DNA from: Rhodococcus sp. ABRD24
Lineage (GTDB): Bacteria > Actinomycetota > Actinomycetes > Mycobacteriales > Mycobacteriaceae
Assembly: GCF_004328705.1 (NCBI RefSeq)
Contig: NZ_CP035319.1
Span: forward strand, 1,674,001-1,738,000
Length of the DNA stretch: 64,000 nucleotides
Direction: 5' to 3'
The notes beneath the pieces are model-generated. The model ran no database searches. It was given only the letters and a program-made list of their open reading frames with translations, and was not told where the DNA came from. This document shows positions 47,581-58,261 of the stretch, piece after piece. The position numbers and the translations under genes are program-made. The first letter of the stretch is position 1. Each line of letters begins with the position of its first letter.

Positions 47581-48279
47581 TCACCAAGTGGAGTCGACTT
47601 CGGTCGGCGAGTCGATGCGGTCCCACACGGTCGCCGCATGGGTCTCGAACAGGTCCGCGGCAACCTCGGCATCACCGATTCGCAGTGCCTCGACCAACGG
47701 TGCGTGAGTCTCGCTGATCTCAGTGAGATCCGCGTAGAAGAGGCGATTGCTGACCAGCGTGAAGCCGCGCACGCAGCCTTCGACCATCGCCCAGATTTCG
47801 GACATCAACGGATTGCCACCGACTTGCCAGACTCGGCGGTGGAAGGACGTGTCCGCCTCGATCATCGCCCGCAGGTCGTCCGCGGCCGCGGCCTCGCGCA
47901 TGCGGTCAAGGTCCATTTCGAGCGCGCTGATGAACTCGGGGCTGGTCTGCGCGCAGGCAAGCTTGGCTGCCAGGCGCTCGAGCGGTATCCGAACCTGGTA
48001 CGCATCACGCGCTTCCTGCTCGCTGATCTCCGCTACGAAGCTGCCCTTTCGGGGTATCTGAAGTACCAGCCGTTCACGGGTCAACCGCAGCAAAGCCTCT
48101 CGTACCGGTGCCTGGCTGATCGACATTCGTCGTGCGATGTCTTGCTCGCCAAGGCGCTCGCCCGGCTGAAGCTCGCCACAGGCGATGGCGTTCTTGAGCC
48201 GCTCGTAGACCTGGTCGGACAGTTTGAACCGGCCGACGGGGGCATACAGGTCGCCGGACGGATGGGGAGAAGCTGCCAC
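47581..48279 (-). CDS. GntR-family regulator, FadR (FCD) subgroup
   Basis: This 232-residue protein has an N-terminal winged helix (LSDQVYERLKNAIACGELQPGERL ... SQAPVREALLRLTRERLV, given in part) and a C-terminal FCD helical domain with metal-type His/Asp residues (DTSFHRRVW, THAPLVEAL, FETHA). FCD regulators usually sense organic or sugar acids. It is divergent from the RraA-led catabolic operon, so it should repress that operon; four CGAT repeats in the shared region are candidate sites. GTG 48279 has GAGGA six bases upstream. Confidence 0.9.
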   Translation of the reverse strand: MAASPHPSGDLYAPVGRFKLSDQVYERLKNAIACGELQPGERLGEQDIARRMSISQAPVREALLRLTRERLVLQIPRKGSFVAEISEQEARDAYQVRIPLERLAAKLACAQTSPEFISALEMDLDRMREAAAADDLRAMIEADTSFHRRVWQVGGNPLMSEIWAMVEGCVRGFTLVSNRLFYADLTEISETHAPLVEALRIGDAEVAADLFETHAATVWDRIDSPTEVDSTW

Positions 48280-48315
48280 GCGTAGTCCTCGTTTCGTTCA
48301 CAAGCCCGCCAGGGG

Positions 48316-48387
48316 TTGACAGAAGTGATGCAGGTCACCACTATAGCAAAAACGCCAATCGATTGACGATTAGCGATGAAACGATTG
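48316..48387 (+). promoter_or_regulatory. Promoter and repeat cluster before the catabolic operon
   Basis: A TTGACA at 48316-48321 is followed 17 bases later by CACTAT (48339-48344). Next comes the perfect palindrome CAATCGATTG (48356-48365) and four CGAT steps at 48360, 48367, 48374 and 48382, that is at 7, 7 and 8 base spacing. The cluster lies between promoter and ribosome binding site (GAGG at 48387-48390), a good place for a repressor such as the adjacent GntR protein. Confidence 0.5.
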
Positions 48388-48396
48388 AGGTATGCG

Positions 48397-49065
48397 ATGA
48401 CCGACCATCCCTGCGAGTCCATCGATCTGGAACGCGTGCGATCAGAACTGACGGCGTCTGTGATCTGCGACGCACTCGACGGTCTCGGCTTGCGGAGACA
48501 AGCGCTCGGTACCGGGATCGCGCCGCTGGAGAATCATCACGTCATGGCGGGTTTTGCCTTCCCCGTCGCCATTCAGCGTGTCTACGACGTTCCGGCCGCA
48601 CCGTTTCGCGGGCTTGTATCCGCATTGGACGCAATAGGTCACGATGAGATCTTCGTGACCCCCACTGCCCGGGCGACGGACCTGGCGGTGTGGGGCGAAT
48701 TGCTCTCCAATGTGAGCCGCACCCGCGGCGCAGTAGGCGCGCTGACGGACGGCCTGGTGCGCGACACCCGACAGACCAGGGAGGTCGGCTTTCCGGTCTT
48801 CTCCGCGGGCACGATTCCGTACGACAGCATGGGCCGGCACGAAATCGTGTCGCACCGGACACCCTGCTTGATCGATGGCGTGCGTATCGAGCCGGGGGAC
48901 TTGATATTCGGCGATTCCGATGGCGTCGTCGTCGTTCCGTCCGCGCGAGCAGCAGAAGTGGTTGCGAGTGCCTTTACGAAGCGCGCCAGCGAGCGCCAGT
49001 TCATCGATGCGGTGCTGGGAGGGTCCACCGCGACCGCGGCCTACGCCAAGTACGGAGTCCTGTGA
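48397..49065 (+). CDS. RraA-like / HMG-aldolase family protein
   Basis: This 222-residue protein belongs to the RraA family, which includes class II 4-hydroxy-4-methyl-2-oxoglutarate aldolases, oxaloacetate decarboxylases and the RNase E inhibitor RraA. GALTDGLVRDTRQTREVGFPVF holds the metal Asp and substrate Arg (motif in part), and GDLIFGDSDGVVVVP is the second signature. Its place at the head of a sugar-acid-type operon argues for an enzyme acting on a 2-oxo acid. ATG 48397 with GAGG six bases upstream was preferred to ATG 48376. It overlaps the next gene by one base (TGATG). Confidence 0.82.
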   Translation: MTDHPCESIDLERVRSELTASVICDALDGLGLRRQALGTGIAPLENHHVMAGFAFPVAIQRVYDVPAAPFRGLVSALDAIGHDEIFVTPTARATDLAVWGELLSNVSRTRGAVGALTDGLVRDTRQTREVGFPVFSAGTIPYDSMGRHEIVSHRTPCLIDGVRIEPGDLIFGDSDGVVVVPSARAAEVVASAFTKRASERQFIDAVLGGSTATAAYAKYGVL

Positions 49066-50369
49066 TGAACCGAGAACGCCTGGCCGCCCTGGACGCCTAC
49101 GTAATCGACAGCACCGTGAAGGGGTTTCCCGTTCTCCCCGGCGGTACGACCGTGCAGGATTTCTCGGCAGGCGGCCCCTCCCTGTTCGATGCAGGGTTCC
49201 TTCCTCCGATCATGGTGCTGAGGGACAGTGCCCTACGCACGAACATCTCGACGATGGCCGACTTCTGCCGTCGGCACGGTGTCCTGTTCGCGCCGCACGG
49301 AAAGACCATGATGGCTCCGCAGCTCGTGCAGCGACAGCTCGATGCCGGCGCCTGGGCCGTCACAGTTGCGACCCCGTCGCAGGCACGAATGTATCGGTCG
49401 TTCGGTGCCAGCCGCATCCTGCTCGCGAACGAACTCGTCGACCCTGCAGCGGTCGCCTGGCTGATGACCGAAATGGACGCCGACCCAGGGTTCGAGTTTC
49501 TCTGCTATGTCGACTCCGTAGCGGGGGTCGAGCTGTTGGCGGGTGCCTTGGACACCATCCCAGGATCGAATCAGTTACAGGTACTGATCGAGGTGGGCGC
49601 CCCGGGGGGCAGGACCGGAAACCGGACTTCGACCGGTGTGATGGCAGTTGCGAACCGCGCCGCCGAGATCCCGCGGCTGAAGGTGCGTGGCGTCTCCGGC
49701 TTCGAAGGCGTGCTTGCTCACCACGCTGATGAGGCTTCGTTGGAGGTCATCCGCGGATACCTGCGCGAGTTGCGTTCAGTTGCGGAAGCAGTCCGGCAGG
49801 TACTGGGTCCAGTCGACGACCCGAATCCTGTCGAGCCCTTCCTCGTCTCGGCCGGTGGGAGCGCGTACTTCGACCTTGTCGCCGACGAGTTGACGCGTGG
49901 CTGGGATTCGGACCAGGTCCAGGTCGTAGTTCGTAGTGGCGCCTACCTCACCCACGACTCGGAGTACTTCGCCGAGCTCTCCCCTTTCAGCCGATCCCCA
50001 CTGAACGAGCCGGAACAACCCGGCCTGACCGCAGCGATCGAGATCTGGGGGTCCGTGCTGTCCATACCGGAACCCGGATTGGCCCTGGTCGGAGCCGGTA
50101 AACGTGACGTTCCGTACGACATTCATCTGCCGCTCGCCGAGGCGGTCCGGCGCCGGGACGGCAGCACTGTCGACCTACGCGGCATTGTCGTCGAGGAGGT
50201 CAACGACCAGCACGCGTATCTGCGCGGCGACGTCCGGGGGCAGCTGGAGGTCGGGGACTGGGTGCGATTCGGAATCTCGCATCCCTGCACCGCTTTCGAC
50301 AAATGGAAGCTCATCCCGGTGGTAGACGACGACCACCGCGTCATCGACTGTGTTCAGACCTTCTTCTGA
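49065..50369 (+). CDS. Fold-type III PLP enzyme (D-threonine aldolase / D-serine dehydratase-like)
   Basis: This 434-residue enzyme has an alanine-racemase-like barrel, residues 50-290, with the PLP Lys in FAPHGKTMMAP, and a C-terminal beta domain with the metal-binding His and Cys in GISHPCTAFDKW. Family members need a divalent metal and cleave or dehydrate beta-hydroxy-D-amino acids. D-glucosaminate dehydratase, as I remember it a Mn-dependent PLP enzyme, could belong here, which would fit the kinase and KDPG aldolase in this cluster. D-serine, D-threonine or D-hydroxyaspartate are the alternative substrates. It overlaps the RraA-like gene and is followed by ridA after 99 bases. Confidence 0.83.
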   Translation: MNRERLAALDAYVIDSTVKGFPVLPGGTTVQDFSAGGPSLFDAGFLPPIMVLRDSALRTNISTMADFCRRHGVLFAPHGKTMMAPQLVQRQLDAGAWAVTVATPSQARMYRSFGASRILLANELVDPAAVAWLMTEMDADPGFEFLCYVDSVAGVELLAGALDTIPGSNQLQVLIEVGAPGGRTGNRTSTGVMAVANRAAEIPRLKVRGVSGFEGVLAHHADEASLEVIRGYLRELRSVAEAVRQVLGPVDDPNPVEPFLVSAGGSAYFDLVADELTRGWDSDQVQVVVRSGAYLTHDSEYFAELSPFSRSPLNEPEQPGLTAAIEIWGSVLSIPEPGLALVGAGKRDVPYDIHLPLAEAVRRRDGSTVDLRGIVVEEVNDQHAYLRGDVRGQLEVGDWVRFGISHPCTAFDKWKLIPVVDDDHRVIDCVQTFF

Positions 50370-50468
50370 ATCGATTCTCCTGACCTGCACCGATTCAAGG
50401 GTGCAGTTGTACGCACTTGCGCCGCAATGCATGCGGCGATCACTACATCCTGAATGCGAGGGATCAAA

Positions 50469-50891
50469 ATGAGTAAACGTCAAGTATCGACCACCAAGGC
50501 TGCCGCCCCCGGAGCCTTCTACTCGCAGGCCATTGTGGCCAACGGGTTTCTCTATACCGCGGGCTTGGGTCCGCAGCATCCGGAGACCGGTGAGATCGTC
50601 GGCACCACCGTTGCCGACCAAACCGAACAAACGATCAAGAACCTAGAGGCGGTCCTGGCTGTGGAGGGTCTCGACCTGTCCGATGTGGTGAAGGCAACCG
50701 TGCATCTGGCCGATCTCGCGCAGGACTTCCGTGCGTTCGACAAGGTCTATCGTCATCATTTCCCTGCGCCGCTTCCCGCTCGAACGACTGTGGGATCCGA
50801 ATTGTGGGGGATTCGCGTCGAGATCGACGTCGTCGCAGCTCTGCGTCCTGAGCTGGACTCGCCACCGCAACCGCGCCAGGAGTCTCGATGA
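50469..50891 (+). CDS. RidA-family enamine/imine deaminase
   Basis: RidA proteins hydrolyse reactive enamines and imines that PLP dehydratases release, giving 2-oxo acids and ammonia. The 140-residue protein has the YSQAIVANGFLYTAG start and the catalytic Arg in LPARTTVG, and ends VEIDVVAAL. This fits well directly downstream of a PLP dehydratase. ATG 50469 has GAGGGA six bases upstream, and the stop overlaps the permease start by four bases. Bases 50370-50468 before it contain no gene. Confidence 0.88.
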   Translation: MSKRQVSTTKAAAPGAFYSQAIVANGFLYTAGLGPQHPETGEIVGTTVADQTEQTIKNLEAVLAVEGLDLSDVVKATVHLADLAQDFRAFDKVYRHHFPAPLPARTTVGSELWGIRVEIDVVAALRPELDSPPQPRQESR

Positions 50892-52279
50892 CGGAAACCC
50901 TCGCCGGGGTGCTCGCCGCGCCCGGCAATACGTGGACCACCCAGGACACCACGCTGATCCTCTGGGCGATGTTCTCCATCGCAGTGGCGGTCGTGCTGAT
51001 CCTTCGTTTCAAAGTTCATGCGTTCGTCGCTCTGACCATTGCAACACTGCTTCTGGGCTTCACCGCCGGCCTCAGTACCAGCAAGATCGTCGGGACATTC
51101 GAAGCCGGAATGGGGGCGACGCTCGGGGCGATCGCCGGGCTCGTGGTCCTCGGCTCCATTCTCGGAAAGCTCATGGCCGATTCCGGCGGGACCGATGTCA
51201 TCGTCGAACGGCTGCTCCACCGCGCTCGACCTCGGGCTGTTCCCTGGTTGATGGCTCTGATCGCGATCATCATCGGTATCCCGCTGTTCTTCGAGGTTGG
51301 GTTCGTACTGATGATCCCGATCATCTTTGCGGTAAGCCATCGGATCGGTGGATCACCGATGAAGGTGGCAATTCCTGCCTTTGCGGCACTATCGGTTCTC
51401 CACGGCTTGGTTCCACCACATCCGGGCCCACTGATCGCAATCAAGGCGCTGGAAGCAGACCTCGGTAAGACGTTGGTCTACGGACTCATCGTCGCAATTC
51501 CTGTAGCGATCATCGCCGGGCCGATCTTCGGTAACTTCATCTCCAAGACGGTCAATCCGACTCTCCCGAAGGCGATGGTCGAGGAGTTTCTGAGCCGAGA
51601 GAAGGCCCAGAACCCGCCATCATTCGGGATTGCTCTCGGCACATTGCTCCTGCCCGTGCTGCTGATGCTCTTCAAGACAGTCGTGGATTTCAGCACCGAG
51701 GAGGGCACCGGTGGAATTCGGGCGTTTGCCGAGTTCATAGGCGATCCCCTCATCGCGATGCTCATCGCGGTCATCGTCGCGATGTTCACCTTCGGAATCC
51801 TCCGGGGCACCGGTGCTACCCGTCTCACCGAACTCGTCGGCAGTGCCTTCCCGCCGATTGCGGCGGTAACGCTCATCGTCGGCGCGGGCGGCGCCTTCAA
51901 ACAGATGCTGCTCGATACCGGAGTCGGTGACGCCATCGGAAAGGCCGCCGAATCCTCGCAGATGTCACCCCTACTCCTTGCGTGGCTCACCGCTGTAGCG
52001 ATTCGCTTCGCGACCGGCTCGGCCACGGTCGCCACCGTGACTGCTGCCGGAATCATGGTTCCCGTGATGGCTCAGGTTCAAGGGACCGAGCCCGCCCTGG
52101 TCGTTCTGGCAATCGGTGCCGGGTCGCTCTTCTTCTCCTTCAACGACGCAGGTATCTGGCTCGTGAAGGAGTACATGGGTACCAGCCTCATCGACACATT
52201 CAAGACGTGGTCCGTCATGGAAACACTCATCTCCGTTTCGGGACTGGCGGGCGTGATGGTGCTCGGTTTGATCGTCTGA
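50888..52279 (+). CDS. GntP-family permease (gluconate/sugar-acid type)
   Basis: This 463-residue membrane protein has about 12-14 helices and GntP-family motifs: GAIAGLVVLGSILGKLMADSGGT, IPLFFEVGFVLMIPI, HGLVPPHPGP, and ATGSATVATVTAAGI (long ones in part). Members carry gluconate, 2-keto-3-deoxygluconate-type acids or D-serine (DsdX) with protons. It is the last gene of the RraA-led operon and would bring in the substrate of the pathway. A strong terminator hairpin follows. Confidence 0.9.
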   Translation: MTETLAGVLAAPGNTWTTQDTTLILWAMFSIAVAVVLILRFKVHAFVALTIATLLLGFTAGLSTSKIVGTFEAGMGATLGAIAGLVVLGSILGKLMADSGGTDVIVERLLHRARPRAVPWLMALIAIIIGIPLFFEVGFVLMIPIIFAVSHRIGGSPMKVAIPAFAALSVLHGLVPPHPGPLIAIKALEADLGKTLVYGLIVAIPVAIIAGPIFGNFISKTVNPTLPKAMVEEFLSREKAQNPPSFGIALGTLLLPVLLMLFKTVVDFSTEEGTGGIRAFAEFIGDPLIAMLIAVIVAMFTFGILRGTGATRLTELVGSAFPPIAAVTLIVGAGGAFKQMLLDTGVGDAIGKAAESSQMSPLLLAWLTAVAIRFATGSATVATVTAAGIMVPVMAQVQGTEPALVVLAIGAGSLFFSFNDAGIWLVKEYMGTSLIDTFKTWSVMETLISVSGLAGVMVLGLIV

Positions 52280-52287
52280 CCATCCCC

Positions 52288-52322
52288 GGTCACCCGCACA
52301 GTGCAGACATGTGCGGGTGACC
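52288..52322. terminator. 13-bp hairpin between convergent operons
   Basis: Arms 52288-52300 and 52310-52322 are perfectly complementary around a nine-base loop. It starts nine bases after the permease stop. Because the IclR gene converges on it from the right, it may serve both directions. The rest of 52280-52482 holds no gene. Confidence 0.7.
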
Positions 52323-52482
52323 GATGGTCCATGACGCAAGTCGAACGAGAGTGACTGCACACGAACAGCTCTCACCGCTCACGGTCCTCCAGAAGGGAGG
52401 GCGACGAGCACGCAGATGGTGCGAATTGCAGGTTCCGACGAGCGCCGACGGCATCGGCTGCAAAACAGTTCTGAAATCTACT

Positions 52483-53235
52483 TCAGGAGCTGTGCGAGCG
52501 GTAGCCGCAGTCGGCCGAGATTGCCGCGGCCACGGCGTGCAGTGGTTCCAACAATTCGAGGAGTTGTTCGTAGCCGAGTACCACGTTCGGGACCGACACC
52601 GACACAGCGGCGAGCACTCGCCCCGTGGCGCCGCGGACGGGCACGGCGATGCAGTTTATCGACGGCTCGTTCTCTTCCTTGTCGTGCGCCCACCCCTGCC
52701 GTCGAACGAGTTCGATCTCCGCAAGAAAGCCCTCCGGGGTTGTGATCGTATTCGCAGTCCTGCGGGTAAAGTCCATGGACGCCACGGTGCTTCGTAGTAC
52801 GGCATCAGGAAGGTCGGCCAGGATCACTTTGGCGACGGCCGTCGAATTGAGATTGGCCAGTAGGCCGATACGCGAGTACATCCGAATCTGGTCGTGAGAT
52901 TCGAACTTGTCGATGTACACCACGTTCCCGGATTCAGCAGCTGCCAAATGAGTTGTTCTACCGTACTTTTCATTGAACCCGGCGAGGTGCGGCGACGCTA
53001 TCTGGCGGATCTCTCGCTGATCGATCGCCTGTTCGGACAATTCGAAAATTCGAGAACCGAGGTGGTATCGGTTGTTGTTGTCCCGGAATGTGAACCGCGC
53101 TTCGGTCAATGTTCGAAGCAGTCGGAGCACCGTCGTCTTGTGGACCCCGGTCGCCTCAGCGAGTGTGTCGAGATTGGCCGGGCCTTGACCCAGCTGAACC
53201 AGTAGGTGCAGTGCACGAGCAACACTTTGACTCAT
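52483..53235 (-). CDS. IclR-family regulator
   Basis: This 250-residue protein has an N-terminal winged helix (residues 1-65: LDTLAEATGVHKTTVLRLLRTL, in part) and a C-terminal GAF-like effector domain (RTTHLAAAESGNVVYIDKFES ... SINCIAVPV). The KdgR proteins that control 2-keto-3-deoxygluconate use belong to the same family. ATG 53235 has GGGGGATTAG upstream; a longer open frame upstream is antisense-like. It lies four bases after the kinase stop and is co-transcribed with the kinase. Confidence 0.9.
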   Translation of the reverse strand: MSQSVARALHLLVQLGQGPANLDTLAEATGVHKTTVLRLLRTLTEARFTFRDNNNRYHLGSRIFELSEQAIDQREIRQIASPHLAGFNEKYGRTTHLAAAESGNVVYIDKFESHDQIRMYSRIGLLANLNSTAVAKVILADLPDAVLRSTVASMDFTRRTANTITTPEGFLAEIELVRRQGWAHDKEENEPSINCIAVPVRGATGRVLAAVSVSVPNVVLGYEQLLELLEPLHAVAAAISADCGYRSHSS

Positions 53236-53239
53236 CGAA

Positions 53240-54274
53240 CTAATCCCCCGAGGTTTCGGTCGCGACGAATCCACTGGAATCGACTCGCGTTGTGGCCCAG
53301 ACCGATTCTGGGCAGGACAGAAGTTCGGCGACAACCTCGGCTGGCGGCTGCGGCGCGGAGTCGAACTCGACCGTGAGGGTAGCGGCAGCGCCGATATGGC
53401 CTCGGCGCAAGCACTGTCCGACCTCTTCGCCCAGTGCCATCCCGGCGAGAAACCCGGCGGCGAAAGCATCTCCGGCGCCAATGGGTTCGACAACGTCCAC
53501 CGTCAGCGCCGGAACGAAGTCGATGCGGCCTGCGATGTCGACCGCGAGTGCACCCCGCGCTCCGTCCTTGATCACCAGCATCCGGGGACCGGGCAGAATC
53601 CGTCGCAGCGCAGCAGGATCCTCCGATCCGAATACCCGGACAGCTTCGTCGGCGCCGACGAAGACGATGTCGGCGAGCCTCGCCAACTCGACGACCATCC
53701 CGGGATCGCCGTGCGGCCATAGCTGTTCGCGCCAGTTCACGTCGAAGCTGATCAGTGCCCCTGAGCTCTCCCTCTCGCCGACCAGGCGCTGCATCAACGC
53801 GGCACAGGATTCCGAGAGAGCGGCCGTGATACCACTGCAATGGATCACGGTAGCCCGATGGAGGACGCGCCGCACCGGGCCTTGATCGAGGAACTGCGGG
53901 CCCATGGCGGAGGCGGCAGAGCCAGCGCGGTGGTACTCGCTTTCCGTGCAGTGCTCGCCTTCGGGGTCAACTGACTTCCGTTTGCGGTAATAGCCCGTCG
54001 GGCGGTCCGGGTCGGATTCAACCGCCGACACATCAACACCGCGCCGACCGAGCTCGGACCGAATGAGATCGCCATACGCGTCCTTACCGACCCTCCCAAC
54101 CCACGAGGTAGGGATGCCTCGCGCTGCTAGACCGGCCGCGACGTTGGCCTCCGCTCCCCCAAGATGAGCGGTGGCCGGATTTGCATCTGCAGCTTCATCA
54201 CAGACCAGTACCAGTGCCTCTCCGAGGCAGACGACCCGATGGGTGTCGACGGGAGTGAAGGTCGAAAGTTGCAC
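53240..54274 (-). CDS. PfkB-family sugar kinase, probably 2-keto-3-deoxygluconate kinase
   Basis: This ribokinase-fold kinase of 344 residues has VVCLGEALVLVCDE near the start, LGGAEANVAAGLAARG for sugar binding, and the anion hole and catalytic Asp in PIGAGDAFAAGFLAG. PTGYYRKR fits KDG kinases, in which a Tyr-Arg segment binds the keto acid. KDG kinase makes KDPG, the substrate of the aldolase encoded 2 kb away in the same island. GTG 54274 with AGAGGA upstream was preferred to ATG 54292, which lacks a ribosome site. Confidence 0.83.
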   Translation of the reverse strand: MQLSTFTPVDTHRVVCLGEALVLVCDEAADANPATAHLGGAEANVAAGLAARGIPTSWVGRVGKDAYGDLIRSELGRRGVDVSAVESDPDRPTGYYRKRKSVDPEGEHCTESEYHRAGSAASAMGPQFLDQGPVRRVLHRATVIHCSGITAALSESCAALMQRLVGERESSGALISFDVNWREQLWPHGDPGMVVELARLADIVFVGADEAVRVFGSEDPAALRRILPGPRMLVIKDGARGALAVDIAGRIDFVPALTVDVVEPIGAGDAFAAGFLAGMALGEEVGQCLRRGHIGAAATLTVEFDSAPQPPAEVVAELLSCPESVWATTRVDSSGFVATETSGD

Positions 54275-54384
54275 GCGTCGTTCCTCTGCCATCGGATGAT
54301 TCGACAAAGCGCCCGGCGCGCAGTGGGATTCGCGGAGGGCCATTGACGATGGTTCGACTCAATGCTAAACATGGCGTAGACAAA

Positions 54385-54411
54385 ATGCAATGTAGATTGC
54401 GCATAATGCAA
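54385..54411. promoter_or_regulatory. AT-rich repeats in divergent promoter, likely operator
   Basis: Between the kinase-iclR unit and the deacylase gene lies an AT-rich stretch with three related steps: ATGCAAT, ATTGCGCAT and AATGCAA, in alternating orientation (54385-54411). The arrangement is typical of sites for dimeric regulators such as the IclR or GntR protein of this island. The 285-base region (54275-54559) holds no other gene; promoter boxes were not placed with confidence. Confidence 0.45.
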
Positions 54412-54559
54412 CGATGCAGTTCCAGGCGGTTTTCCGTTTTCAAAATCGCCCTGTACTGATTCGACCAACCAAGTCGGCGGATGTCGATGCGTGTCGGCAC
54501 CAACGCAGCCGATCCGTTCCTGATCAATCTGTAACCGACCTTCATTCCGAGGATTCGAG

Positions 54560-56182
54560 ATGACGACCACACTCATCCGCTCCGCCACAGTTGTCGACGG
54601 CACCGAGACCCCTCGCTACCGTGCCGATGTACTCGTGGCCGGTGACAAAATCGCCGAGATCTTTCCGCGGGCAGCCGACCAGTCCGCCGTGAGCCCGGCC
54701 GCTGATCGGGTCATCGATGCCGAGGGGCAGGTACTGGCACCCGGATTCATCGACATGCACGCTCACTCCGATCTTCAGATTCTCCTCAACCCACTGCACC
54801 CGGCACGGATCACCCAGGGAGTGACAACAGAGGTGCTCGGGCAGGACGGGCTGTCCTACGCTCCTGTCACCGACGATGTCCTTGCCGTGGTGCGCCGGAA
54901 GATCGCGGGCTGGAACACCGACCCGGAGGATTTCGACTTCTGCTGGCGGTCGGTCGGCGAGTACCTCGACCGGCTCGATCTGGGCGTTGCCACCAATGTT
55001 GCCTACCTGGTGCCACACGGAGTCGTACGGGCGCTCGTAGTGGGATGGGACGACCGGCCGGCATCCGCAAACGAGATCGTTGCAATGAAAGAGATTGTCG
55101 CCCAGGCAATGCGGGAAGGAGCGGTGGGGTTGTCCGCGGGACTCACCTACACGCCCGGCATGTACGCCGACAACGACGAGTTGCTGGCATTGTGTGAGAC
55201 CGTCGCCGACTACGGCGGCTATTTCTCTCCGCATCATCGTTCGTACGGAGCGGGCGCGATCGAGGCATACGCAGAAATGGTCGAGCTCGCCACCAGGTCA
55301 GGCTGTGCCCTCCACCTGGCCCATGCCACCCTGAACTTCGGCCCGAACAAGAATCGAGCACCAGAACTACTGGCGCTGCTCGACAGAGCGACAGCTGATG
55401 GTACAGACATAAGCCTTGACACCTACCCGTATCTTCCGGGCGCCACCACGCTCTCTGCGATCTTACCGAGTTGGGCTTCGTCCGGTGGGCCCGAGGAGAC
55501 TCTGTCCAGGTTGTCGGACCCCCTCTCGCTGAGGAGAATCCGTGAAGATCTCGAAGTCAACGGTTCGGACGGCTGCCACGGTGTGACAGCAGAGTGGGAC
55601 ACGATCGAGATCAGCGGAGTCGAGGATGCCCGGCTCGGGGATTATGTAGGCCACACAATCGCGCAGATCGCGGAACACGAAGGCCGGCCTCCCTTTGATG
55701 TCTGTGTCGAGATCCTCATCCGCGATCAGCTGGGCACGGGGATTCTGCAGCATGTGGGTCACGAAGAGAACGTCCGGGCGATCATGCACCATCCGAGACA
55801 TACCGGCGGCAGCGACGGACTGTTGATCGGCGCGAAACCCCACCCGCGAGCATGGGGTACCTTCGCGCGGTATCTGGGCCATTACAGCCGCGACCTCGGA
55901 TTGATGTCACTCGAGGAGTGCGTTGGCCATCTGACCGGCCGCGCCGCGTCCCGGTTGCGCCTGACAGACCGCGGTCTCGTCCGTAGCGGTTTCGCGGCGG
56001 ACCTGGTGATCTTCGACCCGGAAGCGATTTCCGACACCGCAACCTATGCGGAGCCACGGCAAGCGGCGGTGGGTATCTCGCATGTGTTCGTCCGCGGCCA
56101 GCTCGCGCTCGACAACGGAGTTCTGACCGGCGCTCTGGCCGGGAGATCTCTGCGGCGCCACGAGGGAGGATTCGTCAAGTGA
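54560..56182 (+). CDS. N-acyl-D-amino-acid deacylase family amidohydrolase
   Basis: This 540-residue metallo-hydrolase removes an acyl group from the nitrogen of a D-configured amino acid or related acid. PGFIDMHAHSDL gives the N-terminal metal His pair, GLSAGLTYTPGMYA and SPHHRSYG follow, the catalytic Asp region is GGSDGLLIGAKPHPRAWGTF (in part), and the C-terminal beta part ends in DLVIFDP. In this island the natural substrate may be N-acetyl-D-glucosaminate, whose C2 has D-amino-acid geometry. ATG 54560 has GAGGA six bases upstream. The stop overlaps the aldolase GTG. Confidence 0.88.
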   Translation: MTTTLIRSATVVDGTETPRYRADVLVAGDKIAEIFPRAADQSAVSPAADRVIDAEGQVLAPGFIDMHAHSDLQILLNPLHPARITQGVTTEVLGQDGLSYAPVTDDVLAVVRRKIAGWNTDPEDFDFCWRSVGEYLDRLDLGVATNVAYLVPHGVVRALVVGWDDRPASANEIVAMKEIVAQAMREGAVGLSAGLTYTPGMYADNDELLALCETVADYGGYFSPHHRSYGAGAIEAYAEMVELATRSGCALHLAHATLNFGPNKNRAPELLALLDRATADGTDISLDTYPYLPGATTLSAILPSWASSGGPEETLSRLSDPLSLRRIREDLEVNGSDGCHGVTAEWDTIEISGVEDARLGDYVGHTIAQIAEHEGRPPFDVCVEILIRDQLGTGILQHVGHEENVRAIMHHPRHTGGSDGLLIGAKPHPRAWGTFARYLGHYSRDLGLMSLEECVGHLTGRAASRLRLTDRGLVRSGFAADLVIFDPEAISDTATYAEPRQAAVGISHVFVRGQLALDNGVLTGALAGRSLRRHEGGFVK

Positions 56183-56820
56183 CGGAGATCGACATTCTGC
56201 GACACGACCAGGTCTTGGCAGTGGTACGCGCCAACCGCATTCCCGATACATCCGAACTGTGCCGGGCCCTTGTAGCAGGGGGAATCAGAACGGTGGAACT
56301 CACCTTCACCACTCCCGATGTCGTGCAGCACATCAGCGGTGCCGTAGCTGCCGCAACGCAGGTCGGTGCGATTCTCGGTGTCGGCACTGTGATGACCGAC
56401 GATCAGGCACGCGCCGCTATCGATGCGGGAGCGCGATTCCTGGTCACTCCGGGAATCCGCCCCGGTGTTGCGAAGGTCGCCACCGACCGAGCAGTCCCCG
56501 TGTTCCTCGGCGCCTTCACACCAACCGAGGTTGCGATGGCGGTGGATCTCGGGGCGACCGCTGTCAAGATCTTTCCTGCTCGCACGTTGGGTCCCGGCCA
56601 CTTGTCAGATCTGCACGGGCCTTACCCCGATGTCGAACTGGTCCCGTCCGGCGGAATCAACGAGCACAATGCCCATGCCTACCTGGAAGCGGGCGCACTA
56701 GCGGTCTGCGCGGGGACCAGCGTCGTCCCTCCCGCCAGTGTCGAGGCGGGGGCCTGGAGCGACATCACCGATCGGGCAAAGGCATTCGTAGCAGAGCTGC
56801 GATCCCGGCAGAGTAGCTGA
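56179..56820 (+). CDS. KDPG aldolase (2-keto-3-deoxy-6-phosphogluconate aldolase)
   Basis: This 213-residue class I aldolase cleaves KDPG to pyruvate and glyceraldehyde 3-phosphate. The catalytic Glu lies in VELTFTTP, the Schiff-base Lys in ATAVKIFPA, and the phosphate loop in VPSGGINEHNA; GVGTVMT and LVTPGI are also typical. A KHG or KDPGal activity is possible in this family. It is coupled by GTGA overlap to the deacylase gene. It faces the sdaA operon tail to tail across 58 bases. Confidence 0.9.
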   Translation: MTEIDILRHDQVLAVVRANRIPDTSELCRALVAGGIRTVELTFTTPDVVQHISGAVAAATQVGAILGVGTVMTDDQARAAIDAGARFLVTPGIRPGVAKVATDRAVPVFLGAFTPTEVAMAVDLGATAVKIFPARTLGPGHLSDLHGPYPDVELVPSGGINEHNAHAYLEAGALAVCAGTSVVPPASVEAGAWSDITDRAKAFVAELRSRQSS

Positions 56821-56878: not shown

Positions 56879-58261
56879 TCAACACTCGACGAGGTTCACC
56901 GAGACGTTGACGGCAAGGCCACCCATTGACGTCTCCTTGTACTTCGAGCTCATGTCGGCTCCGGTGGACCGCATCGTTTCGATCACCTGGTCCAGGCTGA
57001 CACGGTGGGTTCCGTCTCCACGCAATGCCATTCGGGCCGCGTTTATAGCCTTGCCGGCAGAGATGGCGTTACGCTCGATGCAAGGGATCTGGACGAGCCC
57101 GCCGATCGGATCGCAGGTGAGCCCGAGACTGTGCTCCATGGCGATCTCGGCAGCATTCTCGACTTGCTCTGGTGTGCCGCCTAGTATCTCGGCGAGTCCT
57201 GCGGCTGCCATGGATGCAGCCGATCCGACTTCGCCCTGGCACCCGACCTCTGCTCCGGAGATCGATGCTCGCTCCTTGTAGAGCGATCCGATCGCCCCAG
57301 CGGCCAGGAGAAATCGGATCGCGGTCTCGTCCGGGTCGCTTCGGCCTGCCGAAGTGTAGTGAGCCGCATAGTGGAGGACGGCGGGGATGATCCCGGCCGC
57401 GCCGTTGGTCGGAGCGGTGACAACGCGACCGCCAGAAGCGTTCTCCTCGTTGACAGCCAGCGCAACAAGGTTCACCCAGTCCTCGGCGTACGCCGGGCTC
57501 CGGTCCGGGTCCTCGGCGGCGAGTCGCTCATACCAGTCCTTCGCCCGGCGACGCACCTGAAGATTCCCAGGCAAGTAGCCACCGCGAGAAATTCCTCGTC
57601 TCTCACACGCGACCATCACGTCGCGAATGTGCAGGAGGCGAGCCCTGACCTGATGTTCGCTCCAGCGCACACACTCGTACGCAAGCATCACATCGCTGAT
57701 GGTGACACCGAAGTGGTCTGTGAGGCCGAGCAATTCACGCCCCGATTCAAAGGAGAACTCAGTAGCGGGCGGAGCCAATCGGGTGTCGGACTCATCGGCA
57801 GTGACGACGAACCCGCCGCCGACCGAGTAGTAGGTCTGCGTGTACACATCGCGATCGTCGCGGCCTGTCGCGGTCAGCGTCATCGCATTGGGGTGGAAGT
57901 CGAGGAAAGTGAGCGGGTGCAGGACGATCTCGGACTCGGTGAGCAGGACGTCCACAACTCCCCCGAGCCGAATCCCGCGCGCGGCCCTCACCTCGGCGAG
58001 CCGTCGCTCCATGACGTCGGGTTCGATCGTTGCTGGTTGGTTGCCCTCGAGTCCGAGGAGGATGGCGGACATGGTTCCGTGCCCCGCGCCGGTGGCAGCG
58101 AGGGATCCGTACAGGTCCACCCGGACACCCGCGACATCGGCGAACAGTCCGTGCTCGTCGAGATGGGCGACAAACCGGACAGCCGCCCGCATGGGACCGA
58201 CCGTGTGTGAACTCGACGGTCCGATACCGACTGAAAACAATTCGAACACACTAATTGTCAT
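56879..58261 (-). CDS. sdaA: L-serine dehydratase, iron-sulfur type
   Basis: SdaA converts L-serine to pyruvate and ammonia with a [4Fe-4S] cluster. The 460-residue single-chain form has the N-terminal regulatory part ([21 protein letters not shown], in part) and cluster Cys residues in VGCQGEVGS and [18 protein letters not shown]. The C-terminal tail ends in a Cys that can cap the cluster, as known for this type. It is the last gene of the gcvP-gcvT-gcvH-glyA-sdaA run and starts four bases after the glyA stop. Confidence 0.95.

Follow-up and report, generated by a model that had tools for sequence, protein, structure and literature searches.

A Rhodococcus gene cluster predicted to degrade N-acetyl-D-glucosaminate, a probable actinobacterial counterpart of the marine ong pathway

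A cluster of nine genes in Rhodococcus sp. ABRD24 probably encodes a catabolic pathway for N-acetyl-D-glucosaminate (GlcNAc1A), a reading to which we assign a probability of roughly 65% and in which all substrates are predicted from gene families and gene neighborhoods. The GntP permease would import GlcNAc1A, which chitin LPMOs leave behind as a C1-oxidised terminal sugar, and a long amidohydrolase would remove acetate from it to give D-glucosaminate. The PLP/metal enzyme, together with RidA, would then eliminate ammonia from D-glucosaminate to yield 2-keto-3-deoxygluconate (KDG), which the PfkB kinase would convert to KDPG for cleavage by the aldolase to pyruvate and glyceraldehyde 3-phosphate. 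Control would be exerted by a KdgR-like IclR protein and a GntR regulator, and an RraA-like protein might act as a second aldolase, with KDG or a similar 4-hydroxy-2-oxo acid as its substrate.

The cluster occupies positions 47581..56820 of the window, which is the whole 64,000-nucleotide stretch of DNA analysed (contig NZ_CP035319.1 of assembly GCF_004328705.1, positions 1,674,001 to 1,738,000, forward strand); coordinates are counted from its first letter. Matches to Pfam, NCBIfam and PDB entries back the following family calls.

47581..48279, minus strand: GntR-family (FCD) regulator (PF07729, 3.6e-22; PF00392, 2.8e-17), divergent from the RraA-PLP-RidA-GntP genes
48376..49065, plus strand: RraA-like aldolase (PF03737, 1.3e-28); its end overlaps the chosen start of the PLP gene
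49062..50369, plus strand: fold-III PLP/metal deaminase, D-serine dehydratase-like, proposed glucosaminate deaminase (PF14031, D-ser_dehydrat, 6e-17; PF01168, Ala_racemase_N, 3e-6); the start is our choice, the mechanical ORF being longer
50454..50891, plus strand: RidA-family protein (PF01042, 1.2e-27); alternative start at 50469
50888..52279, plus strand: GntP-family permease of the gluconate:H+ symporter type (PF02447, 3.9e-142); its 5' end overlaps the end of the RidA gene
52287..52323, no strand: perfect 14-nt inverted repeat with a 9-nt loop, 3' of the GntP gene, which could be a terminator
52483..53235, minus strand: IclR-family regulator (PF01614, 1.6e-45); start placed from the Tsukamurella homologue
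53240..54343, minus strand: PfkB sugar kinase, proposed KDG kinase (PF00294, 8.3e-43)
54560..56182, plus strand: long D-aminoacylase-family amidohydrolase, proposed N-acetylglucosaminate deacetylase (PF07969, 6.1e-39)
56179..56820, plus strand: KDPG aldolase (TIGR01182); its start overlaps the end of the deacylase gene

The original prediction had named eight linked genes, all of which were found in place and in the families given, and had missed the RraA-like gene. The permease scored 474 bits, and 454.7 bits against TIGR00791 (cut-off 292.75), and the aldolase scored 187.5 bits against TIGR01182 (cut-off 156.05). The nearest named model for the IclR regulator was KdgR (NF011671), at 159.5 bits and below the cut-off of 275. 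For the kinase, the best NCBIfam model was NF040938 (KDG/KDGal kinase), at 131.6 bits and below the cut-off of 400, and the best PDB match was 1v19, a 2-keto-3-deoxygluconate kinase. Families for deacetylation, PLP-dependent deamination, RidA and KDG phosphorylation are all present in this one locus, and such a full chain of chemistry, matching that of the experimentally tested ong pathway, argues for the GlcNAc1A reading. Neither a lactonase nor a GH20 hexosaminidase was found among the ten window genes scanned, which we count against it. An L-serine dehydratase gene lies at 56879, 3' of the cluster, with glyA/gcv genes, as read by eye, beyond it.

A marine chitin-oxidation pathway of the same chemistry, to which the original prediction had pointed, does exist. 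In Pseudoalteromonas prydzensis ACAM 620, the ong pathway includes the deacetylase OngB, the fold-III PLP deaminase OngC, KdgK and RidA, and has been tested both genetically and biochemically (PMC9537276). Similar to ong, the window cluster encodes a deacetylase of the D-aminoacylase superfamily, a fold-III PLP deaminase, RidA and a sugar kinase, with KDG and KDPG as the predicted intermediates. In contrast to ong, it belongs to an actinobacterial host, contains RraA and a KDPG aldolase, and carries GntP in place of a sodium symporter and IclR/GntR in place of RpiR. A GH20 gene is part of the ong cluster and also lies beside some actinobacterial clusters, although not in that of the window; lactonase and sugar ABC genes, unlike in ong, adjoin the clusters of some window relatives. 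In the survey that accompanied the ong work, a KDPG aldolase gene lay inside the cluster only in Vibrio, Klebsiella and Serratia, and the complete pathway was confined to Gammaproteobacteria with one betaproteobacterial exception (PMC9537276).

That survey defined an ong cluster by at least four co-occurring genes more than 30% identical to the ACAM 620 ong genes (PMC9537276). With the matching cluster of P. shioyasakiensis (L141) as a proxy for ACAM 620, identities were 34.9% for the PLP enzyme, 30.2% for the deacylase, 29.7% for RidA and 24.8% for the kinase, so that two exceeded 30%; such proxy values would explain why the survey missed the window cluster. On identities, trees and residues, we judge that the window does not hold the same cluster as ong. 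With the same predicted steps but with a deacylase and a PLP enzyme that are distant from OngB and OngC, the window cluster is probably an actinobacterial functional counterpart of the ong pathway. In the literature searched, part of which was available in excerpt, no actinobacterial GlcNAc1A catabolic pathway was found; the available part of a Streptomyces coelicolor LPMO paper contains nothing on GlcNAc1A catabolism (PMC10067821), and that of an Aeromonas paper does not confirm the route (PMC11653859). A Rouxiella locus (L035) considered as an ong anchor was dropped because its ABC genes, judged by eye, are of the amino-acid type and it lacks a deacylase.

By its sequence, the window deacylase is not OngB. 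Its closest solved deacylases are D-aminoacylases (AfDam, 258 bits, versus 212 bits for PpOngB), and it is 71% identical to a Tsukamurella D-aminoacylase. In a tree whose AfDam, BbDam and 9g5m rows were partial and whose OngB rows were flagged for unusual composition, it fell outside the OngB/D-aminoacylase branch and was separated from OngB by a branch with 100/100 support. Compared with PpOngB (PMC12017989; PDB 9kb1), it retains His68, His70, His222, His252, Tyr194, Tyr285, Asp368 and Arg379, but the metal-binding Cys97 is replaced by Asp, Lys254 by Thr, Glu226 by Tyr and Ser290-Ser291-Ser292 by Gly-Ala-Thr, and the insertion is longer. With Asp at Cys97 and both His kept, the subtype V Cys/His/His metal site is not matched, and the Lys254-equivalent carboxylate anchor and the Cys metal ligand of the AfDam/BbDam type are both absent. 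The OngB specificity residues Ser290, Ser292 and Gln298 are missing, which counts against the GlcNAc1A reading, as do the loss of Lys254 and the Asp in place of Cys97: position 292 is Thr, as in D-aminoacylases, and position 298, where the alignment is uncertain, has no Gln and mostly Arg, the letter given for N-acyl-D-glutamate deacylases (PMC12017989). These differences suggest that the deacetylase was probably recruited independently of the ong pathway. A PDB match search gave no solved structure from the window deacylase subfamily and no published assay of a member was found, a further point against the reading.

The closeness to solved D-aminoacylases, the Thr at position 292 and the mostly Arg at the uncertainly aligned position 298 would also suit salvage of N-acyl D-amino acids, in which deacylation is followed by dehydration of D-serine or D-threonine and the kinase and aldolase serve something else. 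Sco4986 of Streptomyces coelicolor, possibly of the same subfamily as the window deacylase, presumably hydrolyses N-acetyl-D-Phe/Trp. The best PDB match of the PLP enzyme is likewise a D-serine deaminase (3gwq, 271 bits). However, kinase, KdgR-like regulator, GntP, GH20 and lactonase genes are over-represented beside the deacylase and D-amino acids need none of them, so we regard such salvage as very unlikely.

The linkage itself exceeds chance: other genomes of the order (Mycobacteriales), and Tsukamurella as well, carry the PLP, deacylase, PfkB, IclR, GntP, RidA and KDPG genes side by side, and Streptomyces has most of this set together; RraA, found in 0/64 deacylase loci, lies outside the recurring set. 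For these counts, genes in high-GC loci were called with a codon-position GC filter, and 22 marine alphaproteobacterial loci were excluded. The latter were judged to be a different system; in the sole annotated one (L053), the PLP and RidA genes lie near RraA, Gfo/Idh, HpcH/HpaI, amidohydrolase, BNR and PhyH genes. Beside the deacylase, IclR was present in 41 of 64 loci, PfkB in 33 and KDPG aldolase in just 13, the last being counted against the GlcNAc1A reading. The recurrence of KDG-level genes with the deacylase, where plain D-amino acids offer no obvious use for them, argues in its favor. In Tsukamurella tyrosinosolvens NCTC13231 (L139), RidA, IclR, kinase, PLP, deacylase, KDPG aldolase and gluconate symporter genes share one locus, as in the window; its PLP, GntP and RidA proteins are distant from those of the window, it has no RraA, and its sole annotated GntR gene lies about 5.6 kb past the last cluster gene.

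GH20 and lactonase genes were linked to the deacylase as well. GH20 occurred in 23/64 deacylase loci versus 4/38 PLP-only loci (p = 0.0037) and lactonase in 20/64 versus 3/38 (p = 0.0048), counts for which one representative each was identified by Pfam and the others by similarity to it. In Microbacterium, GH20 was directly downstream of the deacylase in 6/7 loci. The 41/64 loci that lack GH20 count against the reading. Sugar ABC genes adjoin the cluster in some relatives; for the sugar-binding protein, linkage was 19/64 versus 6/38 (p = 0.088). A search at E 1e-12 with the window genome's own LPMO found a relative in 0/64 loci, which also weighs against the reading.

The ABRD24 genome encodes an LPMO with FN3 domains and a CBM5/12, whose nearest solved structures are chitin-binding AA10 proteins including CBP21; by similarity and by its CBM5/12, it resembles the chitin type. 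The genome also encodes a GH3 protein with a beta-N-acetylhexosaminidase match below cut-off, and both genes favor the GlcNAc1A reading. A short GH19 match was found, and the lack of any GH18 or GH20 (PF00728) match in this genome counts against the reading. Within the order, LPMO_10, a family whose members are not confined to chitin, was present in 51/59 deacylase carriers versus 54/239 non-carriers, and inside one family (f14) in 35/36 carriers versus 6/17 others (genus-level p = 0.03). Among discordant genomes, the deacylase was present in 8/10 with LPMO and no GH18 versus 1/13 with GH18 and no LPMO. Thus, inside the order, the deacylase tracks AA10 LPMO genes and not GH18 chitinases, an association confounded by phylogeny. 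This confounding and the 8/59 carriers without LPMO were counted against the reading, as was the lack of association among named genomes outside the order (LPMO in 7/11 carriers versus 6/12 others), so that the proposed co-occurrence with LPMO-carrying genomes held only within the order. That co-occurrence, together with GH20, lactonase and sugar ABC genes in relatives, supports GlcNAc1A as the predicted substrate, as originally proposed, even though the deacylase differs from OngB at its specificity residues.

Alternatively, a different N-acetylated 2-amino-2-deoxy-aldonate may pass through the same steps, for example N-acetylgalactosaminate or a glycan or peptidoglycan sugar in oxidised form. 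Neither GH20 enzymes nor lactonases are restricted to chitin, the deacylase active site is unlike that of OngB, the best model of the kinase is bifunctional for KDG and KDGal, and a comparable cluster of Klebsiella is annotated with a KDGal kinase and a KDPGal aldolase. In contrast, the window aldolase is far nearer to the KDPG aldolases 1wa3/1vlw (135 bits) than to the KDPGal aldolase 2v81 (64 bits), the IclR regulator is nearest KdgR, and deacylase carriers in the order follow AA10 LPMOs. We consider another aldonate unlikely.

Actinobacteria are prominent degraders of chitin in soil, and to our knowledge little is known of the fate of C1-oxidised LPMO ends outside the sea. At slightly less than even odds, Actinobacteria may own an oxidative chitin sugar pathway that was assembled separately from the marine one and has at its core a second GlcNAc1A deacetylase family, which evolved independently and has an Asp-type metal site. 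For some carriers, the oxidised end sugar may then be a more important source of growth than classical hydrolysis of chitin, as suggested by genomes such as that of ABRD24, which combines a chitin-type LPMO and the predicted pathway with no GH18 or GH20 match and only the short GH19 match. If so, Actinobacteria would hold a parallel route for C1-oxidised chitin ends, the deacetylase step would have arisen at least twice, a subfamily now annotated 'D-aminoacylase' (for example, in the Tsukamurella locus) would gain a function, and the named carriers would become directly testable.

The window PLP enzyme shares the PHGKT lysine and the H-x-C site with OngC and 3gwq, all of the fold-III PLP family. 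OngC falls with its relatives from Vibrio and Klebsiella into a separate clade (100/100), apart from that of the window enzyme; the latter is distinct from OngC and looks like a replacement. Identities to the Tsukamurella cluster fall into two groups (deacylase 71%, IclR 65%, aldolase 61% and kinase 54% versus PLP 41%, GntP 37% and RidA 37%), and in the tree the window PLP enzyme groups with that of locus L079, away from Tsukamurella. These observations, and the RraA gene with no counterpart in the 64 deacylase loci, are consistent with two separate units that touch by chance, one (GntR-RraA-PLP-RidA-GntP) acting on a hydroxylated D-amino acid and the other (IclR-PfkB/deacylase-aldolase) serving something else. 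However, the PLP slot between PfkB and the deacylase, filled in many other loci, is empty in the window, and no second such PLP gene was found in the genome at E <= 1e-40, so the new block would need to supply the deamination step. We therefore regard two chance neighbors as unlikely and favor a single unit acting on GlcNAc1A. Other loci point the same way: in L079, the same PLP type and RidA adjoin the deacylase, and three further loci that group with the window PLP type (L115, L127 and L134; 90/90) have genes for a KDPG aldolase and a kinase no more than about 4 kb away.

The stretch 47581-56820 holds nine genes, three on the minus strand and six on the plus strand. All family calls of the original prediction were strongly matched, but its set of eight genes had overlooked the RraA gene at 48376-49065.

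Genes of the cluster, each with a strong match to the family named, and a repeat among them
47581-48279, minus strand, GntR-FCD regulator
48376-49065, plus strand, RraA-like aldolase
49062-50369, plus strand, fold-III PLP enzyme
50454-50891, plus strand, RidA
50888-52279, plus strand, GntP
52287-52323, perfect 14-nt inverted repeat, 3' of GntP
52483 to about 53235, minus strand, IclR regulator
53240-54343, minus strand, PfkB kinase
54560-56182, plus strand, long D-aminoacylase-family amidohydrolase (deacylase)
56179-56820, plus strand, KDPG aldolase

Three neighbouring pairs, RraA-PLP, RidA-GntP and deacylase-aldolase, share a few bases with the gene starts chosen in this analysis, suggesting co-translation of each pair. 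A near-palindrome around AATCGATT (window 48350-48371), in the divergent gap between GntR and RraA, is a candidate operator.

By analogy with known chemistry, the deacylase would convert N-acetyl-D-glucosaminate (GlcNAc1A) to glucosaminate, which the PLP enzyme would convert to 2-keto-3-deoxygluconate (KDG); the kinase would then form KDPG, and the aldolase would cleave KDPG to pyruvate and glyceraldehyde 3-phosphate. The marine pathway with this chemistry mentioned in the original prediction is real: it is the ong pathway, described in PMC9537276, and the chemistry has been known since 2022. According to that paper, growth of Pseudoalteromonas prydzensis on GlcNAc1A uses the deacetylase OngB, the fold-III PLP deaminase OngC, which yields KDG, KdgK and a RidA protein, and the gene set also includes a GH20 enzyme, a sodium symporter and an RpiR regulator. 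In its survey, which required at least four co-occurring genes, each >30% identical to the ACAM 620 counterparts, genomes with the complete pathway belonged to Gammaproteobacteria, apart from one betaproteobacterium; the word 'Actinobacteria' is absent from the paper's main text. In the open-licence literature searched, we found no report of the actinobacterial cluster or of its separate deacylase subfamily, lactonase partner, regulators or transporter.

The cluster is probably a GlcNAc1A uptake and catabolic route, a reading to which we assign a probability of about 0.65. The gene families, gene order, conservation, linkage and co-occurrence are directly established. The gluco form is favored because the aldolase is closer to KDPG than to KDPGal aldolases and the nearest solved structure to the PfkB kinase is a KDG kinase; no named KDG kinase model was reached at cut-off for this kinase.

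Identity to the ong proteins of P. shioyasakiensis was 30% for the deacylase, 35% for the PLP enzyme, 25% for the kinase and 30% for RidA. The alignment of the P. shioyasakiensis deacetylase to PpOngB (9kb1) spans both proteins in full (823 bits), so the published PpOngB numbering is usable. The window deacylase and 43 cluster relatives (one, L123, partial) keep the two zinc histidines, Asp368, Tyr285, Tyr194 and Arg379 of OngB, whereas Lys254 is replaced by Thr, Glu226 by Tyr and, in all rows covering the position (L123 does not), Cys97 by Asp. Positions 290-292 are Gly/Ala, Ala/Ser/Cys/Met and Thr, and at position 298, in a loop where the alignment is unreliable, most window-type rows have Arg and none has Gln. 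According to PMC12017989, Lys254 is conserved across OngB and the two D-aminoacylase types, Ser292/Gln298 are OngB specificity residues, and the N-acyl-D-glutamate type has Arg at 298. In a tree with AfDam, BbDam and 9g5m as partial sequences and OngB rows flagged for composition, the long deacylases stand on one side of a 100/100 branch and OngB, AfDam and BbDam on the other. Equating the deacylase with OngB and the PLP enzyme with OngC was rejected on these identities, the active-site residues and the trees. If the proposed function is right, GlcNAc1A deacetylation would have evolved twice in this superfamily.

Among 298 sampled genomes of the order, PLP enzyme homologues occur in 93 (E <= 1e-40) and deacylase homologues in 63 (E <= 1e-90); carriers are the 59 at E <= 1e-140, four at 38-39% identity being left out. 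Loci of at most about 21 kb were read from 52 of the 58 non-window carriers, from 11 named genomes and from one Tsukamurella record. The 106 loci counted, from which 22 marine alphaproteobacterial loci of one set of 47 were excluded, comprise 64 with a deacylase at >=50% identity, 38 PLP-only and 4 with a more distant deacylase. By tblastn (E <= 1e-12; some stretches stop near the cluster), the 64 deacylase loci contain PLP in 58, IclR in 41, PfkB in 33, GntP in 33, RidA in 32 and KDPG aldolase in 13; the PLP-only loci contain IclR in 9, PfkB in 5, GntP in 1, RidA in 10 and KDPG aldolase in 5. This recurrence indicates a conserved module, whose named anchor, Tsukamurella tyrosinosolvens NCTC13231, has seven core genes in a row. 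RraA was matched in 0/64 and 0/38 of these loci, and is thus a local addition in the window. Two loci (L118, L122) carry a second long-deacylase subfamily, 36-37% identical to the window's, again with a PLP gene close by, and with a lactonase-like match.

Identity between window and Tsukamurella proteins is high for the deacylase (71%), IclR (65%), aldolase (61%) and kinase (54%), but low for PLP (41%), GntP (37%) and RidA (37%). In the PLP tree, the window enzyme groups with that of locus L079 (100/97), apart from the Tsukamurella type, and OngC and its relatives form a third clade. The kinase-deacylase slot, home of the PLP gene in many other loci, is empty in the window, and no second PLP gene of this type was found in its genome (E <= 1e-40). 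Most simply read, the older PLP and GntP genes gave way to a GntR-RraA-PLP-RidA-GntP block; such a replacement would argue for one shared job of both deaminases. Three loci (L115, L127, L134) have window-type PLP relatives near KDPG aldolase and PfkB genes with no adjacent deacylase, possibly a route for free glucosaminate.

Besides ABC permeases and a sugar-type binding protein, a 30-locus comparison revealed a GH20 hexosaminidase (PF00728, 5e-109) and a 7-bladed lactonase (PF10282, 1e-85); each of these was identified by Pfam on one representative and otherwise by similarity to it. GH20 occurs in 23/64 deacylase versus 4/38 PLP-only loci (p 0.0037), two of these four (L083, L138) having a deacylase elsewhere in the genome, and the lactonase in 20/64 versus 3/38 (p 0.0048); the binding protein showed no clear difference (19/64 versus 6/38, p 0.088). 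In Microbacterium, GH20 follows the deacylase in 6/7 loci, the seventh stretch stopping short of that point; L153 has the deacylase with lactonase, ABC genes and GH20, and its stretch lacks a PLP gene. Three genomes of one genus (g22) have a GH18 match about 10 kb from the cluster. An N-acetylhexosaminate fits hexosaminidase, lactonase and N-deacetylase together better than a D-amino acid does, although GH20 was not seen in 41/64 deacylase loci. We infer the substrate, the specificity of each enzyme and the ligands of transporter and regulators.

The LPMO_10 family, which is not specific to chitin, occurs in 105/298 genomes of the order, and GH18 in 108/298 (E <= 1e-15). LPMO_10 was present in 51/59 deacylase carriers versus 54/239 other genomes; in 35/36 versus 6/17 within family f14 (p 0.03 when tested by genus); and in 2/6 versus 0/49 within the window's family, f1. 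The deacylase occurs in 43/95 genomes with both families, 7/180 with neither, and 8/10 LPMO-only versus 1/13 GH18-only genomes (p 0.0007); four of these eight carriers belong to one genus (g20), and the GH18-only matches are mostly weak (E 1e-20 to 1e-29). Where LPMO_10 and GH18 disagree, the deacylase tracks LPMO_10, with phylogeny still mixed into these tests. The association is seen inside the order; named genomes outside it showed none (LPMO in 7/11 carriers versus 6/12 others).

The window's genome has one LPMO_10 match, a chitin-type enzyme by similarity (L144 727-2106, C1 near 2093886). By eye, its signal peptide stops before His-Gly-Tyr; it carries FN3 domains and a CBM5/12. Among solved structures, it comes closest to 5lw4, a putative chitin-binding protein, and to further AA10 proteins, CBP21 among them. 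The same genome gave no match to GH18 or GH20. A GH19 match, above the Pfam cut-off but short (59/232 positions, 37.6 bits), may be a chitinase, and a GH3 lipoprotein-like protein matches beta-N-acetylhexosaminidase below cut-off (141 bits versus 207), with a KHFPGHG...DSH motif that we take to be NagZ-like. The organism may thus be able to produce C1-oxidised chitin ends, and monomer release might rely on neighbours or on the GH19/GH3 candidates.

With odds close to even, Actinobacteria would have their own, separately assembled oxidative chitin sugar pathway, with a second, independently evolved GlcNAc1A deacetylase family bearing an Asp-type metal site, and some carriers, this genome among them, may rely on the oxidised end sugar over classical hydrolysis. 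Both this pathway and the GlcNAc1A reading are made slightly less likely by the GH19 match and by the predominance of Arg at position 298.

An ong-like cluster in Klebsiella pneumoniae (CP125156.1; L143 7565-13966) is annotated with 2-dehydro-3-deoxygalactonokinase and KDPGal aldolase, and its substrate may be a galacto-configured sugar acid; the deacylase match there is split into two pieces, with no single-gene annotation. In L053 (4861-19878), the PLP enzyme adjoins RidA, and an RraA gene lies 5 kb off, in a catabolic island of Gfo/Idh, SDR, HpcH/HpaI aldolase, amidohydrolase, BNR-repeat and PhyH genes. By tblastn, other marine alphaproteobacterial loci have a gene order like that of L053.
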